In this document: piece by piece, positions 8,770 to 56,433 of the stretch
Layout: the number at the start of each line of letters is the position of its first letter
Numbering within the stretch: position 1 is the stretch's first letter
Origin: Otis tarda
Taxonomy: Eukaryota > Chordata > Aves > Otidiformes > Otididae
Assembly (NCBI GenBank): GCA_026413225.1
Contig: CM048575.1
Span: 6,352,001-6,416,000 of the forward strand
Direction of reading: 5' to 3'
DNA length: 64,000 bases
The notes under the pieces: model-generated
Seen by the model: the letters and a program-made list of their open reading frames with translations, nothing else
Told to the model about the DNA's origin: nothing
Databases searched by the model: none
Position numbers and translations under genes: made by a program

Positions 8770-9167
8770 AGACAGCCAATCGCAAGCCGAGCTTCTTTCG
8801 TGCCTTCGCCTCCCGCCTATCAAATTGTCCAATCAGCACACAGGAGGTTAACGGATTATCCCGTGCCAACGTAGGCGATCAAATGAGCCAATCGGCAGAG
8901 GGCAGGTTCCTTACCAATGAGATCAAAGAGTTAGCGGAATCGGGACGTGCTATTGGTGACTCCACCTGTCGGTCGTAGCCGCGGAGGCTGGTGGTTGGCT
9001 AGCGGGGAAGAGGGGGTGGCTTCCGGGGGCGGGGAAACTATATTAGGGGCGGACAAAGGCGGCGGCGAGGCCGTTCAGTTCGCCGCCATTTTGAGACGCG
9101 GGCTCTGAGGAGCAGCGGTTGCGGCCGGAGCACTCTCCTCCTCCTCCTCTCCACCACCAGCACCACC
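8770..9167 (+). promoter_or_regulatory. SFPQ: SFPQ CpG-island promoter and 5' UTR with five CCAAT boxes
   Basis: The region is CpG-rich, in contrast to the AT-rich DNA upstream. Four forward CCAAT pentamers lie at 8,776-8,780, 8,829-8,833, 8,888-8,892 and 8,914-8,918, and one reverse (ATTGG) at 8,952-8,956. They are spaced roughly 25-60 bp apart, as in NF-Y-driven housekeeping promoters. A TATA-like CTATATTA sits at 9,038-9,045. A perfect YY1-type GCCGCCATTTTG at 9,082-9,093 lies in what would be the 5' UTR, so transcription probably starts near 9,070. The start codon at 9,168 has a CACC-ATG context. Factor binding is inferred from motifs only. Confidence 0.8.
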
Positions 9168-12100
9168 ATGTCGCGGGATCGGTTCCGTAGCCGTGGCGGC
9201 GGAGGAGGCGGCTTCCACCGGCGCGGCGGCGGCGGTGGCCGCGGCGGCCCCAACCACGATTTCCGTTCTCCGCCACCCGGCATGGGCATGGGCCAGAACC
9301 GCGGCCCCATGGGGGGCGGCCCGCAGGGCCCGGGCGGCCCGCCGGGCGGAGGACCGAAGCCTGAGCCTCCGAAGCCGCCCGCATCGACCTCTGCTCCGCC
9401 TTCCTCGTCCTCTTCAGCCACCGCCACCACGACGGGGCCTGCAGGCAGCCAGGCCGGCCCGGGCGCACCTCCACCGTCCACGCTGCCCGCGGGGCAGCCG
9501 CCGCAACAGCAGACTCCGGTGTCTGCGCCCTCCTCGGCTCCCTCCGGCCCGGGGGGGCAGCCGCAGCCCAAGCCGAGCCCCAGCCCCACCCCAGCCGGCG
9601 GCCCTAAGAAAGGACAAGGACAATCGCCCGGCGGCGGGCCCAAGGGACCGGGCGGCCCCCAGCAGGGGCCCGGCGGACCGCACAAGGGCGGGCCGGGGCA
9701 CCGCGGCGGGCCGGGCGGAGAGCCGCGCGGCCGCGGGCAGCAGCACCAGGGACAGCAGAGCCTCTCCTCGCAGCAGCAGGGCTCGGCCGGCAGTGGCGGC
9801 GGCAGCGGCGAGAAGCTTTCGGACGAGGTGAGTCATGGCCCCCCCCCTCCGCCCCTGCCCCCTCCCCGAGCCACAAGATGGCGGCGGTTGCGGACGGGCA
9901 CGGCGGCGCCGCGCGCGCTGGCCGCCATCTTGAGGGGAGGAGCGCGGGGGCGGGGGGCCCGGGAGAGGGGCGGCGGTGGTGGTGGGCGCAGCCGGGCTGC
10001 GGGGAGGCCTAAACGGACTGTGCGTGTTCCCTAGGTGCCTAGGCAGTTCCCGAGTGCAGCCCGAGGGGTCTGTGGCAGTTCGGGTTTGTATTTGTGCCCT
10101 GGAGGAGCTCTGGGCTTCCTGGCGGGAGAGGGCCGCGGCTTGGCGGTGCGGCTGCACGCAGTGACGGCTCGAACTGCTCTGCTTCGTTGTAGGGATTTAA
10201 AGCAAACCTCTCTCTTCTGAGGCGACCCGGGGAGAAGACCTACACTCAGCGTTGCCGCTTGTTTGTCGGGAATTTGCCTGCTGATATAACAGACGAAGAC
10301 TTTAAAAGACTGTTTGCCAAATATGGGGAGCCAGGAGAGGTTTTTATCAACAAGGGGAAAGGCTTTGGATTCATTAAATTGGTAGGCTTTTGTATTGTAC
10401 GCGTGCCCATTTAATTCTCACTAAACAGTAAGTTACAACTTGGTTTTCTAAAACTGGGTCTTAAACTTCCCTTAGGAATCTAGAGCTCTTGCAGAAATCG
10501 CGAAGGCAGAACTGGATGATACCCCCATGAGGGGTCGACAGCTTCGTGTTCGGTTTGCCACACATGCTGCTGCTCTTTCAGTGCGTAATCTTTCGCCCTA
10601 TGTGTCCAACGAGTTGCTCGAGGAAGCTTTTTCCCAGTTTGGTCCAGTGGAAAGAGCTGTTGTGATTGTAGATGATCGAGGTAGATCAACAGGAAAAGGC
10701 ATTGTTGAATTTGCATCAAAGCCAGCTGCAAGAAAAGCATTTGAACGGTGTACTGAAGGAGTGTTTTTGTTGACGACGTAAGTATTTTGCTGCTTAGCAC
10801 TTTTAGTTTTAAGCTGAGTAAAATCATCAGCTTCCAGTTTTTCGGAATGGAAATTCTTATGGAAAAGTGAAATGAGTATTCTTTTGTTCAGCACTCCTAG
10901 GCCAGTTATTGTGGAACCGTTGGAGCAACTGGATGATGAAGATGGTCTTCCAGAAAAGCTTGCTCAGAAGAATCCGATGTATCAAAAGTAGGCACTTGCT
11001 TTTGGTGTAAAGAGTGTATAATAGTAATTTTTCAGAAACAGAATTCTTTGGTTTTTTGGGGGTAGTAGTTTGGTTTTAGATAATGCAACATACTGGTTTG
11101 TTAGTATATTCGCTAAGCATTACACAAGCAATTTCCTACCTTGTATCACAGAGAAACAGTAAAGCCTAAATAGGAGGCCATGGTTTTTGGTGTATGTAGA
11201 AACTCTTGAAAATCAGACTTCAGCTGTTAGCTCATGCTGTTGCTGAGAACTGTCTCTCCCTTAAGGCGTATCTCGTGTTGATGATCCCGTAGGAGATTTA
11301 CAAACTGATGTTTATGGTATGAAATAAGAAATTAAGAAAAAATTTAACTCATTCCATGATTAATAAAAACTAATTGCCTATGGATTTGCCTTATAAGCTA
11401 ACCACTGGGTTTAAAAGAGTAGGTACGAGTCCATAGGAGCCTTTCCTTAAGTAGCAGTTTTAGGTTAGGATCTGTATGTTAAACCTGTTTGTTGTGGAAA
11501 TTATGTATTTTCCCAAATCACAAACGGAGGCGAAGGGGGGAGATGCAGTCAATCTTGCTTGTGTGAGAAAGTGTTCAAAATTACTTGCTTTGATCAAAAC
11601 CTATAAATTTAGAGGCAGTGTCTTTGAAAACTGTAGATTAGAAAGCTTTTGAGCTTTCCTAGTTTTGTTCCATTAATTACTGAATCTTAGACTCTGGTTT
11701 CTTTATATGACAAAATAAACTATTGTCCCTCAAGCATTTTAAAAACTATTTAAGTTAGTGAAGATTGTTACTTGTTGTTGACATATAGTGCTTTGGGTGA
11801 GTCGGCACTGAAAAAAAGCCATCTCCATATGCTGCTGTTTTGAGCAGCTGTACCTACTTGGACAAACGCCTGTCTTGTTTGAGAATTTTGTACCTGGTAG
11901 TTGCCAGGAGTGGAGTGCCTAAGGAAGCTTCTGAGAACAAAATAAAGATGCAGTAGAACTGTAAGTGGGAAGATTGGCTGGATGTGGTAGTACAGGAGTC
12001 TCCGTATTTGCTACGGTAGTCATAGAATTTATTTATATAAAATACTGCTGTTTAAGTTCGTAAAATTCTGTACTGTTACCAGCGTTCTTTCACAGGAGGT

Positions 12101-15100
12101 ATTATGTCACATAGTTGTGAGGTAGCATTTTCAGGGCTCCTTTGATGTTCCCTGATAATTCCACTTACGATCTTTTATTGACCTTCAGTTTCCAGATTTA
12201 CCCAGTCTGAATGAGCATCTTCTTTTCTGCAGGGAAAGAGAGACTCCTCCCCGTTTTGCTCAGCCTGGCAGTTTTGAGTTTGAATATTCCCAAAGGTGGA
12301 AATCTTTAGATGAAATGGAAAAACAGCAGAGAGAGCAAGTGGCAAAAAACATGAAAGATGCCAAGGACAAACTTGAAAGTGAGATGGAAGATGCTTATCA
12401 CGAGCATCAGGCAAACCTCTTGCGTCAAGGTGATTGGCTCTGTATCATCTTTTTGCTTTAAATGCTAATTTAAAGGTTTAATGAATAAATTAGTTTCCTA
12501 CTGCTGACTTCAGAATTTCAGGCCTAAAAAAGCAGCTAGTAGTTTTTCAGTTTTAACTTAAATGAAGTATCGTTAAGAGTAGTAACATTCAGAAGGTAGC
12601 TGTTTGCCGTAGTGCAAATGAGGTTGGTCTAATACGAATCTGAGCTTAAATCTGCAATGAGTTTATGAAATATCTGCTGACAAGGTTCATTTCTGCAGAC
12701 CTTATGAGGCGTCAGGAAGAGCTGAGACGTATGGAAGAACTCCATAATCAAGAAATGCAGAAACGCAAGGAAATTCAGTTGAGGTTGGTTTGGCTTTCAT
12801 GGGATTTTTTTCCAGTGTTATATTTGGTTTTTAAATGACTCATATATGAAAGTGTTTATTTTTTCAAGAAACACCATTGCTGCTTCAGTTCGTGTATGAG
12901 AAATTGAACTGCAGTGTGAGTTTTTCCTTGAGTGTTTGAGCGTTGTGGAGTATCTTTTTTTGCTTGAGTGTAATCATTCAGTGCTGTCTAAAATTACTCG
13001 TGCAAGTGATGTTGGTGAGTGTTGAACCTGTTATGCTCCTGGGGTTTAACAGTCTGCTTTGGGATGATCAGGCAGGAGGAGGAGCGTCGCAGGCGGGAAG
13101 AGGAAATGATGATACGTCAGCGAGAGATGGAAGAACAAATGAGAAGACAGAGGGAAGAGAATTATAGTAGAATGGGTTACATGGATCCAGTAAGTGAAAT
13201 CATGATGATTTTTGGATACGTTACCATGTTTAGGAATTTTCTGGATGTATTTTAAAGATTGATGTGTTTTACTTCCTTTATAATACGATGTCTTTGTGTA
13301 GGTGAAATGGTGCTAGTTGACTGTACGTGTGCTGTATCTCCTGAAAGGTATGGATTTCAGTAGTTGGTTATCCATGCTAAAAGTTGTTTCTTCTATGCAG
13401 AGGGAGAGAGACATGAGAATGGGTGGTGCCACCACAATGAACATGGGAGGTAAAGAATTTTTAAACAACTACTTTATGTGGTCAACTTAGAAATTGTCAG
13501 AATATGATTATATATTTCTCTTTCTTAGATCCTTATGCTTCTGCAGCCCAGAAATTTCCACCTCTTGGAGGTGGTGGCGGCATAGGTTATGAAGCTAATC
13601 CAGGAGTTGGCCAAGCAGCCATGAGTGGTTCTATGATGGGAAGTGACATGGTAATGTATCCTGTGGTGGCTTTAGTTTAGCACAAGGGAAATGCTGTGGT
13701 TGGGAATTGCCAGTGTTCGGATGGTTGTGAAAATTTCACTGTTAACTGCTGACTTTCTCCTCAGGTGTTTAGCCTGAAGACTAGTGCGGCAGTATGTAGT
13801 ACTAGATTAGTTCTTAACCATTATGGTAGCTTACACAGTCGGAAGTTGTTTGTAAGTGAATTCAAATGTGCTGTTAAGCATATTTGCAGTTAACTCTGAC
13901 TTTATTTGACTTTGGAAATTCTGCGTCACTGGTAGGCTTGGAAGGATTTTTATAAATTCGAGATAATCTGATGAGTTTCCTAATGAAAGTATGTAATGTA
14001 GTTTTTCAGTAATTTGACATTCTGTACTTATGGATGAGATTTTTGTTCTCCTTTCCGATGTGTAACATTGCATTTTTTTGGGCCTTCCAAGCCTAGTTAG
14101 GATTGATGCATGTTGGTATGGGATGCTGTTAGTTCAGAAATCTGCACTCATGTCTATTTAAGCAGCAGATTGACTTAAGTAGTGACTGGTAAACAGCATA
14201 ACACTTACTCTGTATGCTGATGTTTGCCATAAAGAGCAGAAATGCTGTTTTTTAGCTTTAGGCATGTTCCAGTGGTCCTTGACTGTAGCCATTTTGTGGT
14301 TCCTGTCTCACAAAGGAATGATAGCCCATTCTTGTTTTCCTGTGTTGGGCATGACTATATAGGTAGCGTTTGTTAAAGCTACGACATATCTCATCCTCTG
14401 AGGTATGTTTCCAAACCGCACTATTTTTGGCACACTATACGTGTGAACGGGCTTTGAGCCTGCTTGGTGTTAGCACACTGAAGCAATACGGATGTAGATT
14501 AAAGAACTGCTTAATGGGCAGGAAAGAAATCTATGTTGACTTAGGTGGCGATACTAGTGTGCTCTCACCCTCCTGAAAGGGTGTACCCTCTGCAGCACAA
14601 GCTGCACTAAGTAATTTTTGGGTGGGTTTAGGCCTCTGGCTTAATGTGGTGAGCTACCATAGTAGCTTGTCAGGTATCTTCTCGTTTTTTTGGGGGAACT
14701 GTATCTTTGGAATGATAACTCTGCAGAGCATCATTGATTCAGTAGACAGTGCCGTTGGCCTTGATGTATCTATATAATCTACTTATATTTAAGCAGTTCC
14801 TAAGTTTCCCGTGAACAGTTAGGCAGTCTGTGGTGAGTGCTGTGTACATTTTTCTCCTGGAAATCACGGTACAAGTGCATGCTGAACTTGTGTAATACTT
14901 GAAAATGTGATATGGTCAAAAGGTGTGACAGTAAGATGGTTTAACTGTCTTGAGTTTCTTAGGATGGGGATCTCTGCCACACAGTGCTGTCACAGTTACT
15001 GGGCCGATAACTTTTAAACAGAATTGGAGATAAGCTGCCATGAATTGGGCAGAAAGAACCTAGGTAATCTTTCTGAAATTCCTTTCTTGGAAGGATTGAA

Positions 15101-16419: not shown

Positions 16420-16730
16420 ATGTGACCTGTAGTTTCATTCCAGTTTGTTTTTGTCTGTCTTGTTTAGACACCAACTTTTTAATTCTTGCATTTTAGTAAG
16501 AAAGCTACGTTTTTATGGATGTTAGAAACTTACTGACCTAATATTTGTAAGTGGTCTGTTTGGGCGAGTACAATTTAATTATGTAATGCAGTGTTTCAAA
16601 ACAAATTTAGCTGTTTTTTTGATGTATAACGTCCCTAACTTGATGGCAGTGTACCTTGTGCCACTGAATTCCCAAAGTGTACCAACTTTTTTTTACTGTG
16701 CTTCAAATAAATAGAAAACTAAATGTAGTA
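16420..16730 (+). terminator. SFPQ: SFPQ main 3' UTR and poly(A) signal
   Basis: About 300 bases of AT-rich 3' UTR follow the TAG stop. A canonical AATAAA lies at 16,706-16,711, so cleavage is expected near 16,725-16,735. An intronic AATAAA at 16,110-16,115, upstream of the last exon, and another at 17,569-17,574 downstream could serve minor isoforms. Confidence 0.85.
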
Positions 16731-19700
16731 ACTCTTCTTGCCATTCGTGGTTGCACATACGAGGCTAAGTACCACACCTTCCGCAGTAAACAGTCTGAGT
16801 AGAGGTCGAACTAGACCAGGGTGTGGAACTGGAATGAAGAGTGAGATCTCTTCCCGTAATGCCTCTAGCTTAAGATTGGGTCAAATAGCCTAACTTTCCA
16901 GTAGGTGCAGATTTTTTTGAGCATTAATTGTGCTGCAATAAGGAAGCAAATGGAAATCTTGCAAGTGCTGTGCGATACAGTAATTAAAGCTATACTGCAA
17001 GCATTGCAGTAGGTAATGAATTTCATATTTTAGCTACGGATAATGGGGTGGTGGGATGGTAGCACTTACCACCTTGGCAGTTACTGCTTGGAATCTTTCA
17101 AAGACTTTAAGCAGAAGACTAGCAATGGTTATTTTAAAATAAATTCATAGAATGACTTGTATTTGCTGACTTCCTAACTAAAGGATTGTTAATGTGATAT
17201 TTATATGCTCTTAAGCTGTCTGAGATTACAGGATCTGGCCTTACTCCGTATTGTGTACTTACCTGAAATTGCTTGGCAAAAAAACCAGAAGTGTTACTTG
17301 AGTGATTAAGGTTAACTTGCTTATGTCCTCATGCTAATTGAGTGGGCTAATTTGCATAGTTCGGAATACAATCATTTATTTTATGGGGACTGCAGGAACT
17401 ATTCTTAAATCGTGTAGCTGGTGGGCAAATCCTAAAAACCTGTATGTAAAATACAGAAATTAGCTTGCTTGCATGATGGCTATCGCTCTTTTATTATTGA
17501 TGTTTGGAGATAATGCATCAAAAGTAGTATCTGAATCTGGAGTTTAATAGTTAATACTGCGCAGTACAAATAAACTCCCTTTAAGGTTCTTTTGTAGAAG
17601 ATTTGATGAATTCGTTAGCTTGCTGTTCATTTTGTTAAGCACCAGAAGAATTTCAAAGCATTCTGGACTCACTGATAAGGTAGTTGCTTTGCTTATTACT
17701 ACATTGTACCAGATAAGCTGGGAACGTGACTTCCCAGTGCAAAATACCTTGGTGTTAATGCAGGATACGTCAACCTGCTTGGCACAAAGTAGGTTAACTT
17801 AGTTTGGCTTTACCTTCACACGATTCCCCAACTACCAAGCATTCTGTGAGTAGCTTTATTCTTCCAAAGATCTTTCCATTCCTTGTGCTAAGCATTGGCT
17901 AATTCTAAATTCTATGCTAAATTTTCTCTGTGGTTAAAACTTTGGTGTCAGATTGCAGTATTTTAGAGTGCAGATGATCCTTCTTGAAGTACTCTAAGTG
18001 CTGTTACTCCTTAAATGAAAAAATAGCATGTCGTGAAATGCTGATACCAGGTAACACTGAATGTTAAGCACACTAAATAGCAACTCAGTTTGGGGAATGC
18101 ATCTTATTTTCCCAGAAAAGTTTGGGGGTTGCTAACATGCTACAGCAATGAATTGCTCTTCAGGAAATTCTGAATTGGCAGTTCTTAAACTGCGGGCCAA
18201 GTATTTGGGAGTACTTGTATTGGACACTTAGTTTAAAAATCAGCAGTACCGATGCAATTTGCTTTATTGAAGTAGTATTAAATAATGCATGTGTTTTCTG
18301 GAAGGGTGTTCATGGGACACCCGCAAAAGGTGAAGGTGTCTGAGATGGGGAATTCTGAACCTAAACATTAAATTAATTTTTTCAGTTTATTTTTCAGATT
18401 ACATGTCATTCTTTGTTAAAGAGATGCTGGTGCATATCCTAAAGTATGTTCTTTTGTAGTTCTGTAACTCAGAAGAGTGAAGGATGCTGATGTCCTTATA
18501 CCTTACAGAGGTTGTCTTTTGGTACCCCTGTTTTGTACGTAAGCTACTGTTGATAGGTATTTAAAAACAGCTGAGTTGCAAAACCATTATTAGTAAATAT
18601 ATTGAAAGATTTGGCAGTTTTCAAAACATCTGGAAGTTTGGTTAAATCTGGCTTTGTTTGTAGCTACATAAGCAGAATTTGTAAACCAAGTTCTGCTTTG
18701 AGTTGGATGTGTTACACGGGCATGTGATTAACTAGACAAATTCTTTTCCAGACCTTTTAAAGGTGGTGTCTTAAAAGCTGGCAAACATATCCACTTTAAA
18801 ATCTGATACAGTTGCTAAATGTGGGAGGCGAGAAAGTTACGTTCCTTTGATCTGTTTCTATGAAGTTTTGGACTTTTTTCATAAAATCAGATTTATCTAA
18901 TTGAATCTTTAAAACCATTGAGAAAAGTGCTTTGGTCAGACCTGGTTTTGGATGGTCTGGATCACGTAACACATTTTTGTACTGGACTTGGAGGACATTG
19001 GCTGCAATTTAGCTTGCTTTACCAAAATTGAGCCCATTTTGACACTTAGATCTCTTAAAAACTGCAGCATGTAGAAACTGGTATTGTTATACATATATCT
19101 TCACATTTTCTCAGAAATGAACATAAAAATAATCTTACCTTCTGGTGTAGACACATTACACTAATCACTTATACAGCTGATGAGAAACTGAAACTGCTTT
19201 TGAGATATTGTGGTATTTTTGTGGTAGAAAAATTCTTGGCTTCTCCTTGGCAACCGTTTACTGTGGCAGCAAGTTTTTGCTGGAGTTTGAGACTGCAATT
19301 TACACTTAAAACTAGTGGCCTGCTACAGAACTGCACTTAGCCAGCATTTCTGCAGTTCATAACTGTGAGGAACGTAGTACCACAAATGGCAATGGACATT
19401 AGGACCCGGATGTAGTATTCCTGCTTGCTCCGAGATTCTCATTGCCGACTGCGTACAGGTAGGTAACAAGCAATATAATATAACTTGGTGACTTTCTATG
19501 TAATCTTATACTGTGGGTATTCTGACATCACACTTCTGACTGTGGAATTACAGTGCAGCACTCTTCATACCTGTATGTTAAGCTTGCATCAAAGCTGCGT
19601 GGTTTTCGGTTTAAGCTTTGTCTTGCTCAGAGTCAATAAGCAACTTACTGTGATTCTTAGATAAGTATTTTCAGACCCGATTCCTTTGTACATATGACTC

Positions 19701-22583
19701 GGCTGGTGTGGATTTTTCTTAGTTCTCATGTAACGAAGATACTCTTAAATGACCTCTGTGGGGAAGAGGGACTGTGATCTTACACATTTAACTAGTCGAC
19801 TAGGTGCTGTTGGTGCCTAGAAAAGAACTGCTTAAACTTTCTGTAGTGACAAAACGGCCCATCTGCAGCGCATCCCTTGGTAGAGTCTTGGCTCAGTAGG
19901 AAATGCGTTAATGATGGCTGCTCTAGCCTTGGGTGCACTATGTGGTGGTCACTTTAAGCTTGCTAATACAGTCAGCTTTGAGATTGATTTGGAATATTTT
20001 TGAGGACTTACAAATGAGTACTTGAATTAGTATTCCCGTGAGTAGTTTCACAGAGCTTATTGGGCATTTCTGTTGTCTTTATTTTAATCTTTGATTGACA
20101 GGCATAATACATTCTTCTGCCTTTAATTGACAGTGATGAGATTCTGTATTTCTGCCTCATAGAGTCTTCTTGGTAGTGTAATGCTCAATTTCATTTTTCA
20201 TCAGTCTTGGGAATGTAATCCTAAACTCTTCATTACTAAAATACTGAATGTAGTGTTTCAGGATTAACGTGCTTACATTTCCAGACATGCTGATCTCCAG
20301 CTTTTTTACATTAGCTCTTGAACCTGAATTTCAAGCTCCCTTATTTCAGCACATGATCTAGCTCTTGTCTGATGTTCAGTTTATTTCAGAGGTGTTGTAA
20401 TGTGTTTTCCCGCTTGTTCTGCAAAGTTCTGCTTTGCGTACTTGTTTGTGGTATTATTGTCACATTCGGGACCCTTCTGTGTTATCTTCCAGGCAAGACT
20501 CTTGCTGGTGAACAGGGGATCTGCTGGACAGCCTTGCCCTCTGCTGTAGCTATCTCTTTATGTTCCATTGAAAGCTTGACAGCTTGAAGTAGCGGCTGCA
20601 CCTTAAGATCATAACAACAGGTCTTTGGTTACACCGCAGTGAGTGTAGCCGAACTCTAGCTAGTCAAGCAGTGACACTGCTTGTCACAAAGTCAGTTTGG
20701 CTTTTTATGATGGCTTACTCTTACCTGTGGCTAGAATTCAGTAGCAAAACTGGTGGCAGTATGCGTACTGTCGTGTAGCAAAACTGAATTATTAATCTTT
20801 CAACCAGTGCTCAGATCTGACTGTTTTTTCCAGTGTGCTCTGGATACTTGACTTGACCTGCAGGAATGTCGTGGAGGGGTTATTGGCACATCTGCCTCGT
20901 TCTACGTACTTTAGCAAGTTTTTGACACTCCTGGAGCAAGCAATTTGTGACTGAACCATGGGTCTCATACCAGCTCTGACTGTCTGCAGTAACGAAACTT
21001 GGTGTGGTAGCTAACTTAAAAGCAAATAGTCATGTCTGCTCTAAGTCAGTCTGTAACAAGTGGGTACAAGAAGTGACATTAAAGTGCTTGCATTGTGTTT
21101 CATCTTGGTTTTACCTGTGTATGAAATACACTTTTTCTCAAGCTTACCTGAAGCTCAGAAGTGTGGTGTCAGAATACATATGCGTACCTGCTAGGCCCTC
21201 AGATCCAGAAACTGGTGCTGTCAGGAGAGAGCACAGCATATAGCGTGTATGGGGGCTTTACTGTAACATTAAGCATACAAAGTGTTGATTTGCTTGCAGT
21301 TTTCCCCATAGCTAAACACCGAGGCCTGTGAGTAGTTCTAGGACTGGAGCAGTAATGGGGTTGCATGTCTCTGTTAATCATTGCCAGCTGCAGTGACATG
21401 ATCAGGAAGGCCAGTGTTTTGTTCCATTATGTTAAATGAGGCTAAGCATGTTGGAAAGGATGCATCAAAAGTATGCTGTTCTGGGTAATTACATGGTTTC
21501 TTCCACTACTACTAGCAAGTTTGGAATCGGCTAATTAGCTTCAGATTTTTTTTTCTCTCCATACCAGCTAGTGGGACTCTTAAATAGCTGCTTACTGGAA
21601 AAGGAAATAAGGGGAGGATTGGCCTTCTCCCACCTCTGTCATTGCTGCTAGGTAATGATTGACACGTTAGGACTTGGCTGTGCAATCCCGCAGTGGTCTG
21701 TGAATACCCCATCTATAAATGTTGCTTCTGAACACCAGTACTGAAGAGCTAACTGGGGAGGGTTGGGAGGAGTGTGCCTATAAGTGGATCTGGAGTATTA
21801 AAAGGATGCACAAAGATATAGTATCCCTTATGCATGGTGTTTGTTGCTATGGCATAGAAAACAAAACGTGCATACTATACTTCTCCTGAGGGCCATGATA
21901 AAACCCAGGTGGTGGGTTTGAGACTAAACTTGAACTTCTCCCTGCCTGGTCAGACCCCATGGTGTGAACTACCTCCCAGCTAGAGGTGTGCACAGAACCT
22001 TGTACTCCCTCCGTAGCTGCCGACCGTTGCAGTTTGCCCTCAGCTTAGCTATATAGCAAAACGGGGGGTCTTCAGATGGGAAGAATCCGTTACCGAGAAT
22101 AAAAGCAGTAGACTGACAACGCTAACCTCTAGTGTCTTCCTTTTGGCTTTTGAAGCACTGCTAGGAGGCAGGGACATTGCACTCCTTCATGAAGGGGAGG
22201 AAAGAGGGCATTGCTATAGGAGAGAAACTAGGGTAAAATAGTAGAAGTAGCTTGACAAAATTGTTAATGCCTTCACATAAGGGATAGTATACCTCTGGCT
22301 GCAATCAAACTTCGTTCTGCTCAGACTGGTGATTTACGGTTTGTGCTCAGACAAGGTGCAGTTCTTCAGTCAACTACCTGCATATTCTTTCATCTCTTTA
22401 CAAGTGTTTAGGCTAGCCTATTTCTGCCCCTTATTTTTCCACTTAATATTTTGGAATAATTTGTAAATTCCCCCTCATAACTAATCAGTCCATGTATCTT
22501 AAAACCTTATTTTTAAGTTAGTTTTGAAATGGTCAGAATTTCTGTGTATTACTATAATAACAACTTCAATTGTTATCCTTTAG
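16731..22583. other. Non-coding region downstream of SFPQ, probably intron of longer SFPQ transcripts
   Basis: No plausible coding exon or clear interspersed repeat was found in nearly 6 kb. The base composition matches SFPQ introns and differs sharply from the GC-rich DNA beyond 25 kb. Well-formed exons follow at 22,584 and later, so this stretch is best read as a long intron or read-through 3' UTR of alternative SFPQ transcripts. Confidence 0.55.
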
Positions 22584-22628
22584 GTGAAGATGAAAGCTGA
22601 GTGAAACTGGAGTGCTCATCTATGGGAA
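22584..22628 (+). other. SFPQ: Predicted alternative SFPQ exon encoding a short C-terminus (VKMKAE-stop)
   Basis: A 45-base exon is flanked by a pyrimidine-rich acceptor (TTATCCTTTAG) and a GTAAGC donor. SFPQ exon 9 ends exactly after a codon (Met), so joining it here reads Val-Lys-Met-Lys-Ala-Glu and then TGA at 22,602-22,604. As I recall, the human short SFPQ isoform diverges after the same Met and continues Val-Arg-Met. That similarity supports this as the homologous alternative exon. It removes the KKPRF nuclear signal. Splicing from exon 9 is inferred, not seen. Confidence 0.6.
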
Positions 22629-22919
22629 GTAAGCATAACTTCTAGTCTTGTTCTGAATGGGTGAAAGAGTAGAGGCTTCTGGACACTTGATGTTCAGTCA
22701 CCGAGTAACTTTGAATTGGTGAATACTGAGAAATCGGTACGAGTGAATACGTGAAATGCATATGGCAGAGCTTGGTACCTGCTGTCAGGCTCTGGGGTGA
22801 AGCACCCAGACTCTGGGCTTGCTATCTTGACAGCAGTGGTTAAAAATACATTTCTAGATGTGGATTTGTACAAGCAATTTTAAAATCCCTAGTAGTGTAA
22901 CTTCTGAATATTTTTCCAG

Positions 22920-22994
22920 TTTGGGAGCTGAGCATGAGCACATGCAGCACGATGCCCAATGATATGTGGAGGGACCAAGATAACGAGTGAACAA
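22920..22994 (+). other. SFPQ: Predicted non-coding alternative SFPQ exon
   Basis: A 75-base segment lies between a good acceptor (ATTTTTCCAG) and a strong donor (ACAA|GTAAGT). It follows the stop codon of the preceding alternative exon and so would be untranslated. With this exon included, the upstream TGA lies about 99 bases before the final exon junction, which predicts nonsense-mediated decay. Confidence 0.5.
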
Positions 22995-23122
22995 GTAAGT
23001 AGTTGGTGTCCTTGTACTGCTGTAAGAGCTCAGTAGCCTGGGATGCGTTCTGTAGTTCCTGCCTGAAATCTGCCCATGATTAATCTCAGTTCATATAAAG
23101 TTTCTGAATCTTTCTTTTGTAG

Positions 23123-23195
23123 AGCCAAGATGTAACCATTGTTTGAGGCTTTTCAGCTCTGCAGCATCAAATAAACTCGGCCCTCTGAATGCTAT
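23123..23195 (+). other. SFPQ: Predicted alternative terminal SFPQ exon with poly(A) signal
   Basis: The acceptor TCTTTTGTAG at 23,113-23,122 is followed by a short segment carrying AATAAA at 23,170-23,175. No convincing donor follows, so it is read as a last exon. The 3' boundary is approximate. Confidence 0.4.
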
Positions 23196-23902
23196 GGGTG
23201 GTCAAACAAGAAATAACCATTCTTACATTCAGGCTCCAGTGAAAGGAATGTGAATGGGGTGGGTGATTGTCAGCAAGGACAAAGGGGAACAATAGAGCAG
23301 CTGCTTCTCTAATGTTAATCCAACTGAAAGTTGTTTAAAAGCTACTTTTTCTGAAATAGTTTAATGAACGTTGAACTTCCAAAATAACTTGAAATACAAA
23401 TTAGCATGTACAAGAGCACAAGCAAATAGCGATTTAGGGAAATAAACTTACTTGCAGAGCTGGAATTAATGAAGTTTTCCCTCTAATTTACTGCTTAAAC
23501 TACAAGGGGGAACTCAAGATATTTAAAATCTTGTGTGAGGAGCAACATGCATTTACCTTAACTCAGGAGTGATGGGTAAGTAACAGCTTAGACATGCCAC
23601 AGCTGACCCTGTAAGATGTGAAGTCGCTGAGGTTCAGTTGGTGAACTCTTGATGAATTGTGTGATTTGTCACTGCTGCTCTTGTTTCTAGGGTAATAAAA
23701 CACAAAGCCATTTCAGATCTTTGAAACTTAGGAAGCAGATGAAAATGTGAATGCTATTCATTTAACATCAAGTCTGAGAACTTGCCATCCTAGAGAACAC
23801 TTGACAGGCGCATGGCCTGTTGTGATGCACTGATTCCCTTGCCATGTGTGATTTCCACTGGTGTTTCTCATGTTCTTGCTAACGTGTGCTTTGTGCTTGC
23901 AG

Positions 23903-23995
23903 AAGATGGTGAAGTCAGAATGCAATGAAGAGGAGCCAGGAACATACAATTTTTTTAAAATAAAATATTTACATTTTTTTATAAATGACTTGTGT
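23903..23995 (+). other. SFPQ: Predicted distal terminal SFPQ exon with poly(A) signal
   Basis: An acceptor (TTTGTGCTTGCAG) precedes about 60 bases and AATAAA at 23,959-23,964. A T/GT-rich tract follows at about 23,990-24,010, as expected downstream of a cleavage site. It would make the SFPQ transcription unit about 15 kb long. Use is inferred from signals only. Confidence 0.45.
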
Positions 23996-24010
23996 TTTAT
24001 TGTGTGTTCA

Positions 24011-26989
24011 ATGAGTAGGCAATCTGTTCAGCATAATGTGATATGGATGAATTTGAGAAACTGCCACAAATGAGGCCATAGAAGGGGACACGGAATGTGC
24101 TCGGAGCAGTGAGAAGGGCTTGCGTCTTTGGATCCTGATTGGGCGCATGAAAGATAACCACTCATAACCAATAAAAAACCTGACAGAGACATAATACAGT
24201 ATTTTTTCCTGATGGGGTTGTGCCATGGGCTTCCCCTTGTAGTTAAAAAGCTCCAGTTTTCAGGGTAGCTGCATTCCTGAGCAGTATGCAGGCACAGCTG
24301 CTTTTGCCAAGTGGCTAGCTTGACTTTTTTTTTTTTTAATTACACTTGTACCTAAGGCACTCTCCAGAAGTTTCACCCATTCCTTCCCCCATCTCGAGTG
24401 CTGTGCACTGCTGTATTTTTAGATTATAGAATTCTGAATGTTTGTGTGCCTGGTTGGTTTTTATTAACTTTCTTGATGATGACTGTAGTAATTGTGCCTG
24501 AGGTGCCAAAGTTAAGGTTCTGTGGAAGCCAGAAAAGTGCTGGGTTTAGCTCCTGGAGCACGAACTGCCATGGTTTGTATTGCTTCATTTGATTTTTTTG
24601 GACAGCTGTACTGTGCACATACATAGTTCATGCTGTCGTTTATTAAATGCAATCCTTTGTTTAAATACCGGGTAGTTTAATGTGTCAGAGCCGTATGAAA
24701 TACTTGAGACAGGTCTGGGTGTCCGGGGGGGCAGGATTAGTGCCTGGCTGGAACATGACTCACCTGTGCCTTGCCTCCCAGCCAGGAATTACATTTTGCT
24801 GTGGCTTAAATACTGTGTGTTTACTTCCCTCTTGGTTCCGCTAACAAACTGTAAAGTTGGTCAGAGCTGTTGTAGCTGTGTTTCTGATGTTGACTCGGTG
24901 TTATTTTATAGCTGTAGATAAGCAGCCTTGGTGCTGGCCTGCGCTCCCCCGGTGTGGCGGGGGCTCGGACGAGAACAGCGGCTGTTGGGCTGGGGGCTGC
25001 ACCCCAGCCTCGAGCATCTGGTGGAGGGGAAGGACCCTGGCAGCAGCGGGGGGAGAGGGCTGGTGCTGCATTGAAAGCTGCTCACTGCTGCTTTTCACTT
25101 TTTCATGTAATCAAGTGATGGGGTGCACGACCATCTGAAGTATTTCGCTCTTTGATTTGACTTCTTTGTGGTATTGTCCGGATTCTGAAAAGGCTTCAGA
25201 GAGAAGAGGTTTTGTGGTTCCTCAATAGCTGCACTGCAAGGGGCTGGGTTTCAGCGTCTTTGTCTCCACAGCTGCTGCAGGCTCAGGCAGCCTTTTTTTT
25301 TTTTTTTTTCCCTCAAATTCTGTTATTTTCCAGTAACTCGTCCTAATTTCTTTGTTGCAGCATCGGCTGCTTCCTCTGTGAAACTGTTTCCAGCCTGAAC
25401 GTGATTCTTGCATGCGATGTGCTGAACTTCCCCTCTTACATTTCCCTTTGTAAGCAGTGTTTTGCTTTCTGTATTGAGGCAGGGTGTATTTTGGAGAACG
25501 GCAGAAAGCACCCCAGTTTCTGTGTCTGTCAGCCATTCTCATCACCTGGTGACTGACGCGGAGATTTTCCTCTGAGGGCTGGGCACTGCGCCGGTGGGTC
25601 CTGTGCCTGGTAAAGCTGATGATTTGGTTCTTACCAAGTGTTTCATTAATTAAAAAAGAATTAGCGGCTGAGGGCTGGCACGGGGTACCGTGTGACCGGT
25701 GTCCTGTCCCAGTCAGCGTTTGTTTGCCATCGTGTCCTGCTATGAGGGGTTTCTCCCGGCTGTGGTGCCGTGGGGCTCGGAGGTGGTGCGGGTGCCCCCT
25801 CAGCGGTTACGGGGCAGCCCTGGGCTTGGCCCCGGCCGCCTGGGAACAGCAAACACAGCGAAAGGATTTTGCAATGTTTGCACAAACCCAAGACCGACCT
25901 CTGTCCGGACTGAGTGGGCTCTGCTCTGTGGTGGGGCCGCAATTCCGCTATGAGAGAGAGGAGCTGCTGTTTGAGCAGAAGGAAGATCATTTCTGCAGGC
26001 GAGCGTCTCCCTGGCTCCCTTGGACAACAAACCCTGGCAGCTTTGACAAACGCTTCCTGCGCTAACGCCAACGCGCTGAAGCCACGACCCTGCGCTGCAG
26101 CTGCCGCAATCCATTGTTCAGCATTTGGTTTTTGTTTTTTTTTTTAAATCTTTTTTTCCCCAAGGGGCTTTCTGAGACAAGAAGGGCTGCAGCCTGCCCT
26201 GGCCTGTTGCTGTTTATTGTTCCTTGGCGTGCAAGCTGGAGCAGGGAGAAGCTCCAAGTCATCGTGAGCAGCTCCGCGGCTGTGCTCGCTGCGGCAGGCG
26301 AAGTGAGCGATGCGCTGCCAGGAGTAAAAATAGTGCAGCCCTCGGCCGCTGCCGCACCCCCGTGAAGCCAGGCGCCCGCGGCAGCCCCTGCAAGATCCAA
26401 GCCGGCAGTGCTTCCTGCTGCCTGGGAAGTGATTCCTGCTTTTCCGTGATTTATTGACATTAAACAAAATCCTTCCGTGTGAATTACGGTAACGTCGGGG
26501 CTGCCGCGGCTCCCCTTGGCCCTGGCTCTTGCCAACCCAGGGCTGCGTTTCCCGGCGGCCGAGGAGCGCTGGCGCAGGCGGTGACGCAGGCCCGGGGAGC
26601 GCGAGGAGGGCGGCAGCCATCTCCGTCACCCCAACGGGGGCCTCCCTGGTGCCAGAAGGAAAAAATCTTTCCTGCCTTTGCCTCTTTCACCAGCTTGCTG
26701 CGGGCGGGGGGGGGGGCTGCCCCAGGGGTCTCTGCAGCCCCTCGCACCGCAGCCCTGGCCCCAGCCGCCTTCGTGGGTGCTGGCACGGAGCACAACCGTG
26801 GCGAGCACGTGGGCATGGCCCCCACAAAGCCCCGGCTGTGGAGTTTGGGGGTGTTTTTTCGCCACTTCTTCACTCAGCTCTGGTTTGGTGGGAGGATGGT
26901 GCTGGCCGAGGCGGGGAGGGGGATCACAGCCCCGGGCGGGGGAGTGAAGCTGCAGATTTGAGCAGCCCTTTCCCAGCAGCACCCCACGG
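24011..26989. other. Intergenic: transition from AT-rich to GC-rich DNA
   Basis: No gene was recognised. The composition rises steeply in GC from about 24,920. A 19-20 base poly-T run lies near 25,290-25,310. The ORFs here on both strands are GC-driven shadows without domain similarity. In human, ZMYM1 and ZMYM6 lie between SFPQ and TMEM35B; I see no trace of their zinc-finger coding sequence in this interval. Confidence 0.6.
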
Positions 26990-27115
26990 CTGTGGGTGGG
27001 GGGGCGGATGTCCCTGCTCCTCCCTGCCCTGGCCGGGACGGGGCTGCGGGGGCCGGAGCAGAGCCGAGCGGGGCCGATCCGCCCCGCCCCGGCCCCCGCC
27101 CCGCCCGGCCCCGCC
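26990..27115 (+). promoter_or_regulatory. TMEM35B: TMEM35B CpG-rich promoter and 5' UTR
   Basis: This GC-rich segment has repeated GC boxes (CCCCGCCC-type at about 27,080-27,115) just before the ATG, and no TATA box. It is a typical housekeeping-style promoter. The transcription start cannot be placed precisely. Confidence 0.55.
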
Positions 27116-27967
27116 ATGGCGGCGGCGTTCACGGTCCTGCGCGTCCTGCTCGGGCTCTTCTTCCTCCTGACGGGGGTCGCCAAGCTCTCGGAGCAGCTCT
27201 CGGCCGATCTGCACCGGCACATGGTGAGCGCGGCCACGGCGGCGGGGGTGCAGGACTGAGCCCCTGGGGTCCTGGCTGAGCCCTTGGGTGGGGGGGGGTG
27301 AGCAGGATGGGGTGCAGGGCTGGGGACTTTGGGGTGAGCAAGCCTGAACCCCTTGGGGTGCAGGGCTGGGTCCTTTAGGATGCAGGGCTGAGCCCTTTGG
27401 GATGCAGGACAGAGCCTTTCTGGGAAGGGGCTGAGCCCTTTGGGGTGCTGGGTGCAAGGCTGAACCCTTTGGGATGAGCAGGGGCGGGGGGCTGAGCCGA
27501 GCAGGCCCTGCCGGAGGGGTCTGTGCCCCCCAGCCCCGGGCTCAGGGCAGCTCCGCTCCCCTCTCGCCCTTCCCAGAAGTCGGAGTTCGTGCGGTTCGCC
27601 GAGGTCTTTCCCCTGAAGGAGTTCGGGTTGGCGCCCGAGCCGGGCCGGTACCTGGAGGTGGTGGGCTGGACAGAGGTGGTGGCAGGGCTGCTGCTGGCGT
27701 TCGGGCCCCAGCTCCTGCAGGAGATCAGCAACTTCGTCCTCAGCGTCGTCATGATCGGTGAGAGCCCCGCGCGGGGTCTCGGGGTGGGGGATGCTCCGGG
27801 AGGGACCTCGGTCCCCACGCTCTGCTCCTCGCCCAGGTGCCATCTACACGCTGCTGGTGCTGCGGGAGCCGCTGGCCATGTGCGCCCCTGCCACCCTCTG
27901 CCTCGGCCTCCTCCTGCTGCTCAACATCCGCGGGCACGCGGCCCCCCCCAAGCCCAAGTTCGAGTGA
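27116..27967 (+). CDS. TMEM35B: TMEM35B: small multi-pass membrane protein of the TMEM35/DoxX-like group
   Basis: Three coding exons (27116-27223, 27577-27757, 27837-27967) with matching phases give 139 residues; human is slightly longer at the C-terminus. The protein starts MAAAFTVLRVLLGLFFLLTG (first membrane helix). It continues with the family signature KLSEQLS and the EFVRFAEVFPLKEFG segment, then three further hydrophobic stretches at about 62-80, 86-105 and 111-127. It ends in a short polar tail (PPKPKFE). The four-helix layout and the FAEVFPLK and LQEISN phrases match human TMEM35B. Its paralogue TMEM35A (NACHO) is a chaperone for nicotinic receptors; the role of TMEM35B is poorly known, and I do not infer chaperone activity. 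The start ATG has a GCC-GCC-ATG-GCG context. It lies in the same order relative to SFPQ and DLGAP3 as in human. Confidence 0.93.
27250..27490. repeat. Degenerate G-rich minisatellite in TMEM35B intron 1
   Basis: Roughly 23-25 bp units built on GGGCTGAGCCCTTTGGGATG recur about eight to ten times with many substitutions and length changes. It fills most of the 353-bp intron 1. Minus-strand ORFs rich in Pro, Ala and Lys here are by-products of the repeat. Confidence 0.75.
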
Positions 27968-29180: not shown

Positions 29181-29276
29181 TCCCCACTCAGCACTTAAAG
29201 CCTCCCCCAGCCTGGCTGGATCAGACAGCGAGGGGCAGCCGGAGGGGACGCAGCCGGTCCAGCCTGACGCGGTGCG
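29181..29276 (+). promoter_or_regulatory. Predicted proximal promoter and non-coding first exon of the PTAFR-like receptor gene
   Basis: A TTAAAG box near 29,196-29,201 is followed about 25-30 bases later by a possible start region. A clean donor, GCG|GTGAGTAAC, lies at 29,276/29,277. The matching acceptor, CCGTCTTCGCAG, ends at 29,504, ten bases before the receptor ATG. A non-coding first exon followed by one coding exon is a common GPCR gene layout. Transcript support is needed to confirm it. Confidence 0.5.
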
Positions 29277-29513
29277 GTGAGTAACCGGCTTGGCGTGGGT
29301 GCGATGGAGGGCTGGGGGGCGCGGGGGGCTTCTGATCCTCGTCAGGCTGCGATGGCATCCTCGCTGGGGGGCTCTGGCTCCGGTGCCCAGCACCTACCGC
29401 AGGCGCCAGCCGGAGAGGTTGTCCTCTCCCGCCCAATGTCCCTTCCCTCTCCGCTGCGGGCTGCGGTTGGAGCCCGGCTGCTGACTGTCCCCCCGTCTTC
29501 GCAGGAGCCCGGA

Positions 29514-30503
29514 ATGAACGGCTCGGTGCTGGGGGACCCCGGCGATTGCGTGCCCAGTGACCCTGTGCAGTTCGTGCTGGTGCCCACTGTCTACTGCCTG
29601 GTGCTGTGCGTGGGGCTACCGGGCAACCTGGTGGCCTTGCTGGTCTTCCTGCAGAGCGGCAAGGTGAGGAAGGCCATCCGCATCTACCTCATCAATCTCA
29701 CGCTGGCCGACATCCTCTTCAACCTCACCCTGCCCCTCTGGATCCCCTACTACCTGGCCAGGGGCGACTGGCTGCTCTCGGAGGCTGCCTGCCGCCTGGC
29801 CGGGGCCGCCTACTACCTGGCGACCTACAGCGCCGTCACCTTCATGGCGCTCATCAGCTTCAACCGGTACTGCGCGGTGCGGGCGGCGCGGCGGGAGCTG
29901 CCGCTGACGGGGCGTCGGGGGGCCGCGCTGGCCTGCGCCACGGCCTGGCTGCTGGGGCTGGGCTGCGCCGTGCCCACCCTGGCCACCCGGCAGACCTTCC
30001 CCGCCCGCGCCGGGGCCACCACCTGCTTCGAGCAGCACGGCCGGCAGCAGACGTACGCCTACGCCATGGTGGGCTTCTTCGCCGCCGCCTTCCTGGTGGT
30101 GCTGGGCACCTACACCTCCATCGCCCGGGCGCTCTCGGCGCCCGCCGCTGCCTCACCTGGCTCCCACCGGCAGCAGGCGCGTGCCATGGTGCTGGGGATG
30201 CTGCTGGTCTTCGTGGTCTGCGTGGCCCCCTACCACCTCACGCTGGCCCCCTGGGTGGGCAGCCGCCCCGCCGTGCCGCTCTGCGGGCCCCCCGCCGCCC
30301 TGGACGTGCTGCACGCGCTGAGCGTGGCCCTGCTCAGCCTCAACAGCTGCCTCGACCCCCTCGTCTACTGCTTCTCCATCCGGCACTTCCGCGCCGACCT
30401 GGGACGGACCCTGCGCAAGATCAGCCCCTGCCTCCCCCTGTCCCCGCCGGTCCCCGCTGGGCCCCTGCCCGGTGTCCGCACGTCCTCCTTCGCCTCCTCG
30501 TAG
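29514..30503 (+). CDS. Class A (rhodopsin-family) GPCR resembling the platelet-activating-factor receptor
   Basis: A single 329-codon coding exon encodes seven hydrophobic helices at about 20-46, 56-82, 92-120, 136-156, 181-206, 224-246 and 266-288. Visible landmarks are a sequon at Asn2, Asn38 (TM1), Asp66 in NLTLAD (TM2), Cys93 and Cys171 (likely disulfide), NRY at 117-119 in place of DRY, Pro239 in TM6 without the usual CWxP Trp, DPLVY at 281-285 in place of NPxxY, and Cys306 as a possible palmitoylation site. The phrases LTLPLWIPYY, GDWLL, CRLAG, TTCFEQ and LDPLVYCF resemble PTAFR (LPLWIVYY, GNWIL, CFEHY, LDPVIYCF), which also lacks canonical DRY. Overall similarity looks moderate, so this is more likely a PTAFR-related paralogue than PTAFR itself. 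P2Y-like or other delta-group receptors remain possible. The ligand is unknown. I recall no receptor at this position in human. Confidence 0.88.
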   Translation: MNGSVLGDPGDCVPSDPVQFVLVPTVYCLVLCVGLPGNLVALLVFLQSGKVRKAIRIYLINLTLADILFNLTLPLWIPYYLARGDWLLSEAACRLAGAAYYLATYSAVTFMALISFNRYCAVRAARRELPLTGRRGAALACATAWLLGLGCAVPTLATRQTFPARAGATTCFEQHGRQQTYAYAMVGFFAAAFLVVLGTYTSIARALSAPAAASPGSHRQQARAMVLGMLLVFVVCVAPYHLTLAPWVGSRPAVPLCGPPAALDVLHALSVALLSLNSCLDPLVYCFSIRHFRADLGRTLRKISPCLPLSPPVPAGPLPGVRTSSFASS

Positions 30504-30632: not shown

Positions 30633-30638
30633 ATTAAA
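30633..30638 (+). terminator. Poly(A) signal (ATTAAA) of the receptor gene
   Basis: The common variant hexamer ATTAAA lies about 130 bases after the stop codon. It gives a very short 3' UTR. No AATAAA occurs nearby on this strand. Confidence 0.65.
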
Positions 30639-53200: not shown

Positions 53201-56200
53201 ACGAGCTCAACCACCAGTTCGAGGCCGTCTGCGAGTCGGTGTTCGGCGAGGTGGAGTCGCAGGCCGTGGAGGCGCTGGACCTGCCCGGCTGCTTCCGCAT
53301 GCGGAGCCACAGCTACCTGCGGGCCATCCAGGCGGGCTGCTCCCAGGACGACGACTGCCTCTCGCTCTTCTCCATGTCGGCTCCCGCCGGGCCGCCCATC
53401 ACCAGCAGCATCCTGAAGCCCAGCACCTGTGAGTCCCCGGGGGGGGGGTGGTAGGGGCTCAGTCGCGCAAGGGACCCCCGCATCTCCCCGCCTGCTTGCC
53501 CAGGCGCCCGCCAAGGGCTGCTGCTGCCCCTGCTCCTGCCCCCGGCCCCGTGCAGCCCCCGGCACAGGGCGTAAGCATCCCACTCAGGGCACGAGCATCC
53601 CACTCGCAGCTCAGCCCCAGCGCGAGGTGTGAGCATCCAGCTCGTGGCTCTGTGCCCCCAGCACCCGTCTGCCCTTCTCTTCTTCCCTCCACTTCTTTCC
53701 CCCTACTTCGTTTCCCCGTCTCTGCCCCTTGCTGGGAGCTGCAGCAGCATGGCCCGCGTGGGTCTAGGGGGGTTTCCAATCCCTTTCTGGGGATGAACTT
53801 GCCAAACAGCCCCTCTTAGCTCCAGCCTGGATCTCAGGCAGCCAAGGTGCAAACCCCCATTCCCCCGGGGCCCCCCGTTCGCGGTGGGAAATGAGCAAGT
53901 GTCTGTGTTTTCACGCGCCTTTTCATCCTGCGCCTCTCCCACAACAGCCTTCAGTTACAGAAAAGCTCCACCTCCCATCCCTCCAGGAACCAAAGCCAAA
54001 CCCCTCATCTCCGTCACGGCGCAGAGCAGCACCGAGTCCACCCATGAGAGCTACCTGCCCGGCGAGGTCGCCCGCAGCCCCGCCTGGTCCAAAGACGCCG
54101 CGGCCCGTTGCAACTCGGCCGAGAGCCTGGAGAGCTCCAAGGTGTCGGCCGTGGCCCTCGACCTGCCTCCGGTCCAGCCCCGCGCCGCTCCCAAGCCCTC
54201 CACGCTCATCATCAAGGCCATCCCCGGCCGGGAGGAGCTGAGGAGCTTGGCTCGGCAGCGCAAGTGGCGACCCTCCATCGGCGTCCAGGTGGGCTTCGCT
54301 CCTCCCTGCGGGCTCCCAGCTGGCCCGAGTGGCACGGGCGATGCTGAGCCACCGCGCCGCATCTCACGGGCCGCCCTCCAGTGCTCTTTCTCTCTGCCCC
54401 TCGGCAGGTCGAAGCCATCTCCGACTCGGATACGGAGAGCCGGAGCCAGAGGGAGTTCCACTCCATCGGGGTGCAGGTGGAGGAGGACAAAAGGTAACCA
54501 CGCGGATGGGCTGGGCTGAGACCTGCCACGCTCGCTGCGCGGGGGGATTGCGTTCCCTTGGGGCTCCCTGAGCTGCCCCGCAGCATCTTTGCCCTGTCAC
54601 CTCCGGCTGAGGCTCCCGGAGCTCAGCACCACCCCTGCTGGGGCAGGATCTGCTCCCACCCTGTGCTCGTGTCTCCTTCACTGGGGCTCAGCCGCGGGGT
54701 TTGAACCCGGCCCGGGAGCCGATGAAGCCTTTGGGCTTTTCTGCAGCTAAACTCGACATTTTGGCCGGGGTGGGAGCGCCGTGTGCCGGCACCTGCGCGG
54801 GCCGCAGGAGGGCATCTCTGGCAACGTGCCCACACAACCCTGGTGCACGCTCCTCTCCATCCTTGGTCCAGCGCCGGTAACCATGGAAATGGGCAAAGAG
54901 CAGAGGGAATGAGGGACTGGCAGGCTGCAGCAGCTCAGGGCCGTCCCTGTGACCCTGAATGCTCCGGGATCCAGACCGGCATCCCCAGCCCCATCCCGCC
55001 TGCGGGCACCCCTCACCCTGCCCCTGCCCGGCGAGGGGACGGCGCAGCGGGGCTGCGCTCGCTGGCGGCGAGGGACCCCACGCGCTCTCCCTCTCCGCAG
55101 GCGAGCGCGCTTCAAGCGCTCCAACAGCGTGACGGCGGGCGTGCAGGCCGACCTGGAGCTGGAGGGCTTCGCCGGCCTGGCCGTGGCCACCGAGGACAAA
55201 GCCCTGCAGTTTGGGCGTCCCTTCCAGCGGCACTCCTCGGAGCCCGAGTCCGGCCGGCAGTACGCCGTGTACAAGACGGTGCACACGCAGGGGCAGTGGG
55301 CGTACCGGGAGGACTACCAGCTGCAGTACGACACGGTGGAGGTGCCCCGGCGGGATGCCTGGATGGAGCGGGGGTCCCGCAGCCTCCCCGACTCCGGCCG
55401 TGCCTCTCCCTGCCACCGCGATGGGGAATGGTTCATCAAACTGCTGCAGGCGGAGGTGGAGAAGATGGAGGGCTGGTGCCAGCAGATGGAGAGGGAGGCT
55501 GAGGACTACGACCTGCCGGAGGAGAGTGAGTTGGGGTGATTTGCGGGGTCGGGAGGGGCTGGGGCTCCCGCGGGGCTGGGGGACACAGCCGTGGTCCTGC
55601 GGTGCTCCCACCTTGGAGCATCCCCCCTGCCAAGGCTGAAGAGGTTGGGTTGGGGCGAGAAACAGCGGGGAAACCCTCTGGGACTCAGACCTGACCGTCT
55701 GCTCTCCCCTCGCCAGTCCTGGAGAAGATCCGGAGCGCGGTGGGCAGTGCCCAGCTCCTCATGTCCCAGAAGGTGCAGCAGTTTTACCGCCTCTGCCAGC
55801 AGAACATGGTGAGTGCCGGGGGTCAGCCGCGGCAGGCGGGGGGGTCTCGTACCCGTGCCCAGTGGAAAAGGGACTTGGTAACACCATTGGGGAGAGCCGG
55901 ACAGAGCCCCCCCGGCAGCATCGGGGTGGGATGGCCAGCAGATCCACTGTCCATGTGGCCGACACTCTGTCCCCGCAGGATCCCAACGCGTTCCCCGTGC
56001 CCACCTTCCAAGACCTGGCCGGCTTTTGGGACCTCCTGCAGCTCTCCATCGAGGACGTCAGCATGAAGTTCGCGGAGCTCCAGCAGCTCAAGGCCAACGG
56101 GTGGAAGATTGTGGAGCCCAAGGTAAGGGCAGGGCTGTGCCAAGCCCACCCAGACACCCGTTCCCCAGAGGTCCCGGCCCCGTGCCCGCCCTGAAGCCCC

Positions 56201-56433
56201 CATTATCTGTGCAGGAGGAGAAGAAGGTGCCTCCCCCGATACCAAAGAAGCCGCCTCGCTCCAAGGTGCACCCGGTGAAGGAGCGTTCCCTGGACTCGGT
56301 GGACCGGCAGCGGCAGGAGGCCCGCAAGCGGCTCCTGGCAGCTAAGCGAGCTGCCTCCTTCCGCCAGAGCTCGGCCACCGAGAGCGCGGACAGCATCGAG
56401 ATCTACATCCCCGAGGCGCAGACCCGGCTGTGA
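50275..56433 (+). CDS. DLGAP3: DLGAP3 (SAPAP3/GKAP3): postsynaptic density scaffold protein
   Basis: Ten coding exons: 50275-51292, 52278-52483, 52950-53064, 53194-53428, 53948-54288, 54408-54493, 55101-55525, 55717-55808, 55979-56122 and 56215-56433. All junctions are GT-AG and in phase except for one frame break inside exon 1. Allowing for it the product is about 959 residues (human 979). Visible parts are the MKGYHG start, PPTLLDQFEKQL, the RIRHLVHSVQKLFAKSHSLE block, an 11-His tract, GWWSSDDNLDSDS, and SYIKAMGD and RMRSHSYLRAI repeats (PSD-95 guanylate-kinase-binding type). These are followed by APPPIPPG, SNSVTAGVQADL, the C-terminal GH1 region from about exon 7 on, and the terminal EAQTRL, the SHANK PDZ ligand. 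It links PSD-95 to SHANK at excitatory synapses, prominently in striatum. The ATG is preceded by acceptor TCCCCGCAG ending 50,216. Exon 3 (Phe-Ala-Ser... through a Cys-rich NCPSCC) differs somewhat from human. Confidence 0.97.
50470..50495 (+). other. DLGAP3: Frame break within DLGAP3 exon 1
   Basis: Conserved N-terminal sequence (MKGYHG..., PYLLSP) is in one reading frame to about 50,480. From about 50,490 the conserved sequence (GPLSEPPS, STFPRM, LLDQFEKQL) continues in the +1 frame. Exon 1 is 1,018 bases, one more than a multiple of three. That fits one surplus base or two missing bases. The rest of the gene is intact, so an assembly error in this GC-rich stretch is likelier than a real mutation. 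Confidence 0.85.
50852..50884 (+). repeat. DLGAP3: CAC-repeat encoding an 11-residue polyhistidine tract in DLGAP3
   Basis: Seven CAC codons, one CAT and three CAC encode eleven histidines. Human DLGAP3 has a similar His tract at the same place, before QSRHGKRSKSKDRK, so the tract is old. Its nearly pure codon makeup suggests length is still evolving by slippage. Confidence 0.9.
52729..52808. repeat. 40-bp tandem duplication in DLGAP3 intron 2
   Basis: Two nearly identical 40-bp copies, sharing TGCGCCGCTGCGGGACGGCT at 52,741 and 52,781, lie side by side in the intron. They differ by one base (TTTGT versus CTGT context), so the duplication is recent. Confidence 0.85.

Follow-up and report, generated by a model that had tools for sequence, protein, structure and literature searches.

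The window analysed here, a 64,000-nucleotide stretch of the Otis tarda genome, holds an intact open frame resembling the platelet-activating factor (PAF) receptor (PAFR, gene PTAFR), which raises the questions of what this receptor is, how old its relation to PTAFR is and which ligand its pocket would accept. PAF strongly promotes inflammation, and to our knowledge humans have a single identified receptor for this lipid. The best explanation overall, which we regard as probable with a good deal of room for doubt, is that the window encodes a class A G protein-coupled receptor (GPCR) that is an old sister of PTAFR, probably GPR199, and has a phosphocholine-lipid pocket. Much firmer is the core of this explanation, as we are highly confident that the gene and its paralogy to PTAFR are real.

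Judged from its sequence, the plus-strand interval 29514-30503 (window at G000:C24:6352001-6416000) is a genuine class A GPCR gene (Table 1). Chance long ORFs are frequent in this GC-rich window, and the call is based on homology rather than on ORF length. The Pfam profile 7tm_1 matched residues 37-285 with 160 bits (E 1e-46, cut-off 30.5) over profile positions 1-260 of 260, spanning all seven helices of a class A (rhodopsin-like) receptor, and the complete seven-helix receptor claimed in the preliminary description was thereby borne out, with an intact frame of 329 residues. By sequence, the PAF receptor was the top solved structure with 149 bits (E 1.9e-42), and GPR4 came second (135 bits). 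The positions of C93 and C171 are those expected for the usual disulphide, and N2 is the sole likely extracellular sequon, as N61 and N70 lie inside helix 2 (positions by alignment). Single-sequence AlphaFold prediction returned seven helices, but at a confidence too low to support fold comparison (pLDDT 48.1, pTM 0.31). Upstream of the coding sequence, a putative acceptor AG ends nine bases 5' of the ATG. The receptor frame is open upstream as far as 29277, with in-frame ATGs within 29277-29513, so that translation of an unspliced transcript might begin further upstream and lengthen the N-terminus.

Table 1. Features located in the window, with positions counted from its first nucleotide.
Feature	Position	Strand	Basis
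NOPS-domain exons, taken as SFPQ	10902..12302	+	Pfam NOPS match
DoxX-family gene, taken as TMEM35B; coding exons 27116-27223, 27577-27757, 27837-27967	27116..27967	+	Pfam
Probable 5' noncoding exon, start a guess	29220..29276	+	GTGAGT donor, first base 29277
Probable intron, GT...AG, 228 bases, pyrimidine-rich ahead of AG	29277..29504	+	Sequence read by eye
PTAFR-like receptor CDS, 329 aa + stop, single exon	29514..30503	+	Open frame, homology; genome self match 100%, without internal stop
ATTAAA, poly(A)-signal variant	30633..30638	+	Sequence
GKAP-domain exons, taken as DLGAP3, downstream of receptor	55096..56430	+	Pfam GKAP match

The receptor had been placed between TMEM35B and DLGAP3. The flanking DoxX and GKAP families were confirmed by Pfam, the joined exons of the former scoring 37.1 bits with DoxX and 31.9 bits with DoxX_2, while the exact names TMEM35B and DLGAP3, like SFPQ for the NOPS-domain gene, are used here as presumed identities. 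Three ORF pieces upstream of the GKAP exons (50279-51355, 52060-53451 and 53797-54516) were without a Pfam hit, as was the ORF at 9003-10031; we take the former to belong to DLGAP3 and the latter to be SFPQ-like. The NOPS-domain and DoxX-family genes lie close together in the window (10902-27967); in human, ZMYM genes presumably lie between SFPQ and TMEM35B.

In the receptor, the DRY site reads FNRY (N117) and the CWxP site CVAP (V237), and DPLVY (D281) and TTCFEQ are also there, so NRY, DPLVY, the missing CWxP Trp and TTCFEQ are all present as first described. Their interpretation as PTAFR-like hallmarks stood only in part: N at the DRY site is found in both PTAFR rows and in none of the 42 other compared receptors, whereas the absence of W at CWxP (42/42) and D at NPxxY (38/42) are typical of the receptors compared here. 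With NRY and DPLVY, the G-protein activation motifs are intact in PTAFR-like form, and the receptor would be predicted to signal through G proteins. PAFR couples to Gi and Gq according to PMC12648956, and the same coupling is expected here by analogy.

The relation to PTAFR was approached through the receptors of the same genome (1.198 Gb, 116 contigs), 122 of 244 search candidates being scored, so that further copies may exist. Among the 122 scored, the top non-self match was 31% identical (145 bits) and shares the contig of the window receptor, at a distance of 2.6 Mb. This match, at G000:C24:3745813-3746718, groups with human PTAFR, with which it shares 188 of 293 residues, and is this genome's PTAFR. 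Raw identity scarcely separates PTAFR from GPR4 as the nearest relative of the window receptor, because the values are 86/277 for human PTAFR, 88/314 for bird PTAFR and 81/287 for GPR4. Pattern searches of prokaryote genomes (83 matches) and viral contigs (11 matches) returned no relative of the receptor, both collections being uninformative on vertebrates.

Of 80 loci taken from the genome, all but L060, for which no match was kept, matched the window receptor in BLAST (79 loci). A quick tree was built from 78 rows, comprising 76 own-genome rows including the query together with stretches of human PTAFR and GPR4, after L076, L077 and L078 had been dropped as partial. The query's side of this tree gave a 45-row set, from which a careful 36-row tree was derived by removing L040, L051, L052, L053, L064, L065, L071, L073 and L079, some of them for long branches. 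The query joined both PTAFRs, apart from the other delta-type receptors, in the quick tree (SH-aLRT 97), in the careful tree (bootstrap 99, SH-aLRT 96) and in a 45-row tree recoded to six states because of the odd composition of the query (SH-aLRT 92.3, bootstrap 83). In the 36-row tree, the window receptor forms a long branch (1.72), and human and bird PTAFR group without it (100/99).

Approximately unbiased (AU) tests rejected three other placements of the query: next to bird PTAFR alone (p 0.0005), next to human PTAFR alone (p 0.0009) and next to the pair L004/L008 (p 0.0014). The window receptor as the PTAFR orthologue is consequently rejected, by the first two of these tests and by the union of human and bird PTAFR without it. 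It is a paralogue and not the only copy, as first proposed, since a separate PTAFR exists on the same contig and the query lies outside the bird and human PTAFR clade. The further suggestion of a sauropsid paralogue did not survive if it means a duplicate made within sauropsids. A PTAFR duplication within sauropsids or birds would fit the presence of both genes on one contig, and is hardly credible given the AU result against the union with bird PTAFR and the 100/99 grouping of the two PTAFRs. As a bird-only duplicate is rejected, the split between the query and PTAFR is therefore older than the bird-mammal ancestor, a date prior to the bird-mammal split that is supported by the trees under the models used. 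The duplication itself may have taken place within one chromosome, an origin proposed because the receptor and PTAFR share a contig.

Residue patterns also favour PTAFR as the sister of the query. Twelve rare residues, defined as present in at most 10% of the 42 other receptors, are common to the query and both PTAFRs, compared with 0-5 for 12 control pairs that were hand-chosen and not matched for divergence. Two of the twelve, W76 (W73 of PTAFR) and C286, also occur in the GPR4 group. The likeness to PTAFR comprises the N at the DRY site, the equivalents of W255 and H275, the shared contig and the sister position in three trees; in contrast, the window receptor is only 31% identical, falls outside human plus bird PTAFR and is GC-rich and Ala-rich.

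The grouping with the GPR4 group was left standing by the AU test (p 0.12), in keeping with a receptor that belongs with GPR4, GPR65, GPR68 and GPR132 (perhaps the GPR201 set) and senses protons or a lysolipid. GPR4 is also the second-best solved relative, W at position 2.60 is common to the query, GPR4 and three bird rows, and F-E in loop 2 is a further likeness. This placement nevertheless lowers the log-likelihood by 12.6, and rare residues shared with GPR4 pairs number 2 versus 12 with PTAFR. The proton-sensor positions, which we take to be a helix-4 E and one histidine each in loop 2 and helix 7, hold G, T and A in the query versus E, H and H in GPR4, although these three residues are also missing from one bird member of the group. 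A helix-6 H is present in the query, but it occurs in 35 of the 45 rows. Membership in the proton-sensing GPR4/65/68 group is not borne out at these positions, and we consider a place in the GPR4 group improbable. On balance, the sister of the window receptor would be PTAFR.

Large parts of the product had been described as Ala/Arg-rich in a GC-rich locus, and the counts agree: Ala makes up 14.6% and Arg 6.7% of the window receptor versus 5.7% and 3.7% of the PTAFR of the same genome, GC3 is 0.95 versus 0.64, and GC around the gene is 68-74%. A GC3 of 0.95 together with an Ala-rich protein suggests GC-biased evolution in a GC-rich stretch. The same two features and the long branch could also be expected of a decaying gene or a recent pseudogene without function. 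Against such decay, the 329 codons contain no stop, and the splice sites, C93/C171 and helix motifs are all intact. In a neutral simulation started from the present sequence, which was crude and did not count indels, 13.9%, 2.4% and 0.05% of runs were stop-free at 0.1, 0.2 and 0.5 substitutions per site, respectively; long neutral drift is unlikely on these fractions, recent decay less so. We regard loss of function as very unlikely and read the frame as an old sister of PTAFR.

A set named GPR199 was placed "near PTAFR" in a 2019 survey (PMC6504862), which lists gar, coelacanth (duplicated), two sauropsids and two mammals, one of them a marsupial, and includes ENSLOCP00000002041. Like the window receptor, the set is near PTAFR, occurs in sauropsids and is distinct from human PTAFR, a likeness compared by description only (PMC6504862). 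Matched by this description and not by sequence, the window receptor is probably a GPR199 member. If so, it was not simply lost in mammals and the loss would be partial, because the set lists two mammals, and the proposed loss in mammals would hold at most for some of them. In the literature searched, neither a ligand for GPR199 nor the phrase 'platelet-activating factor receptor-like' was found. 'GPR199' appears among cannabinoid targets in PMC9739544, which we think is a slip for GPR119.

Pocket residues provide the closest view of a possible ligand. According to PMC12648956, W73, F97, F174, E175, W255 and H275 are essential for PAFR activation, and the contacts are W73, Y77, F97 and E175 with choline, Q252 and H275 with phosphate, and H188 and Y177 with acyl-PAF. 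These residues were mapped on the 45-row alignment, all human letters agreeing with the numbering of the paper. Five of the six essential residues are retained in the query (W73, F174, E175, W255 and H275), and F97 is replaced by Y; the best other receptors retain four of six. Among the 42 other receptors, W255 is found in none, H275 in 2, W73 in 4 (the GPR4 group), E175 in 12, Y77 in 15 and F174 in 17.

Of the ten PAF contacts, six are identical in the query. The differences from PTAFR are Q252 to L, Y177 to H, F97 to Y and the apparent loss of H188, which falls in an alignment gap and, read by eye with the gap ignored, corresponds to Ala; L at the Q252 site also occurs in 13 of the 42 others. 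H248 of PTAFR, presumably also a pocket residue of PAFR, is Y in the query. By this comparison, the rare, telling residues survive on the choline side and at the pocket mouth, and the inner polar ones do not.

The retention of five of six essential activation residues and an N at the DRY site common only to the PTAFR rows could also mean that the window receptor is a fast-evolving second true PAF receptor, the same ancient gene having left birds with two. Q252, one of the two phosphate contacts given in PMC12648956, is nevertheless L and H188 is apparently lost, and a second PAF receptor seems unlikely to us. Chicken PAF work mentions one PAFR gene in PMC5741692, which speaks neither for nor against it.

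In the preferred reading, an old sister of PTAFR, the query pocket would still cage the phosphocholine head group via W76, Y80, Y100, F172, E173, W247 and H267, and the part for the phosphate, acetyl and inner tail would be altered. Instead of PAF itself, such a pocket may take a choline lysophospholipid or a phosphatidylcholine that is oxidised or resembles PAF in some other way. That the receptor responds to a phosphocholine lipid, which need not be PAF, is a tentative proposal to which we assign somewhat less than an even chance. The fuller proposal is more tentative still: a second ancient vertebrate phosphocholine-lipid (non-PAF) receptor that arose before the bird-mammal split, was kept on a GC-rich avian microchromosome and is missing in humans, its choline cage retained while the contacts for phosphate and acetyl were remodelled for a different ligand. 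An old sister in which most activation residues are retained and some ligand contacts are not would offer a natural experiment on how the pocket selects its lipid. The gene could also help to deorphan the GPR199 set, being an ordinary-looking orphan worth the effort, and lies in GC-rich DNA, in which genes are reportedly often missed in bird assemblies.

The own-genome collection also contained a pair of chemokine-receptor-like genes that closely resemble each other and are separated by about 16 kb (L022 and L023, G000:C2:47303989-47322335), with end branches of 0.12 and 0.08 in the 78-row tree and differing C-termini. Additionally, one GPCR match (L036, G000:C2:121556711-121557628) carries a single TAG inside the matched stretch.
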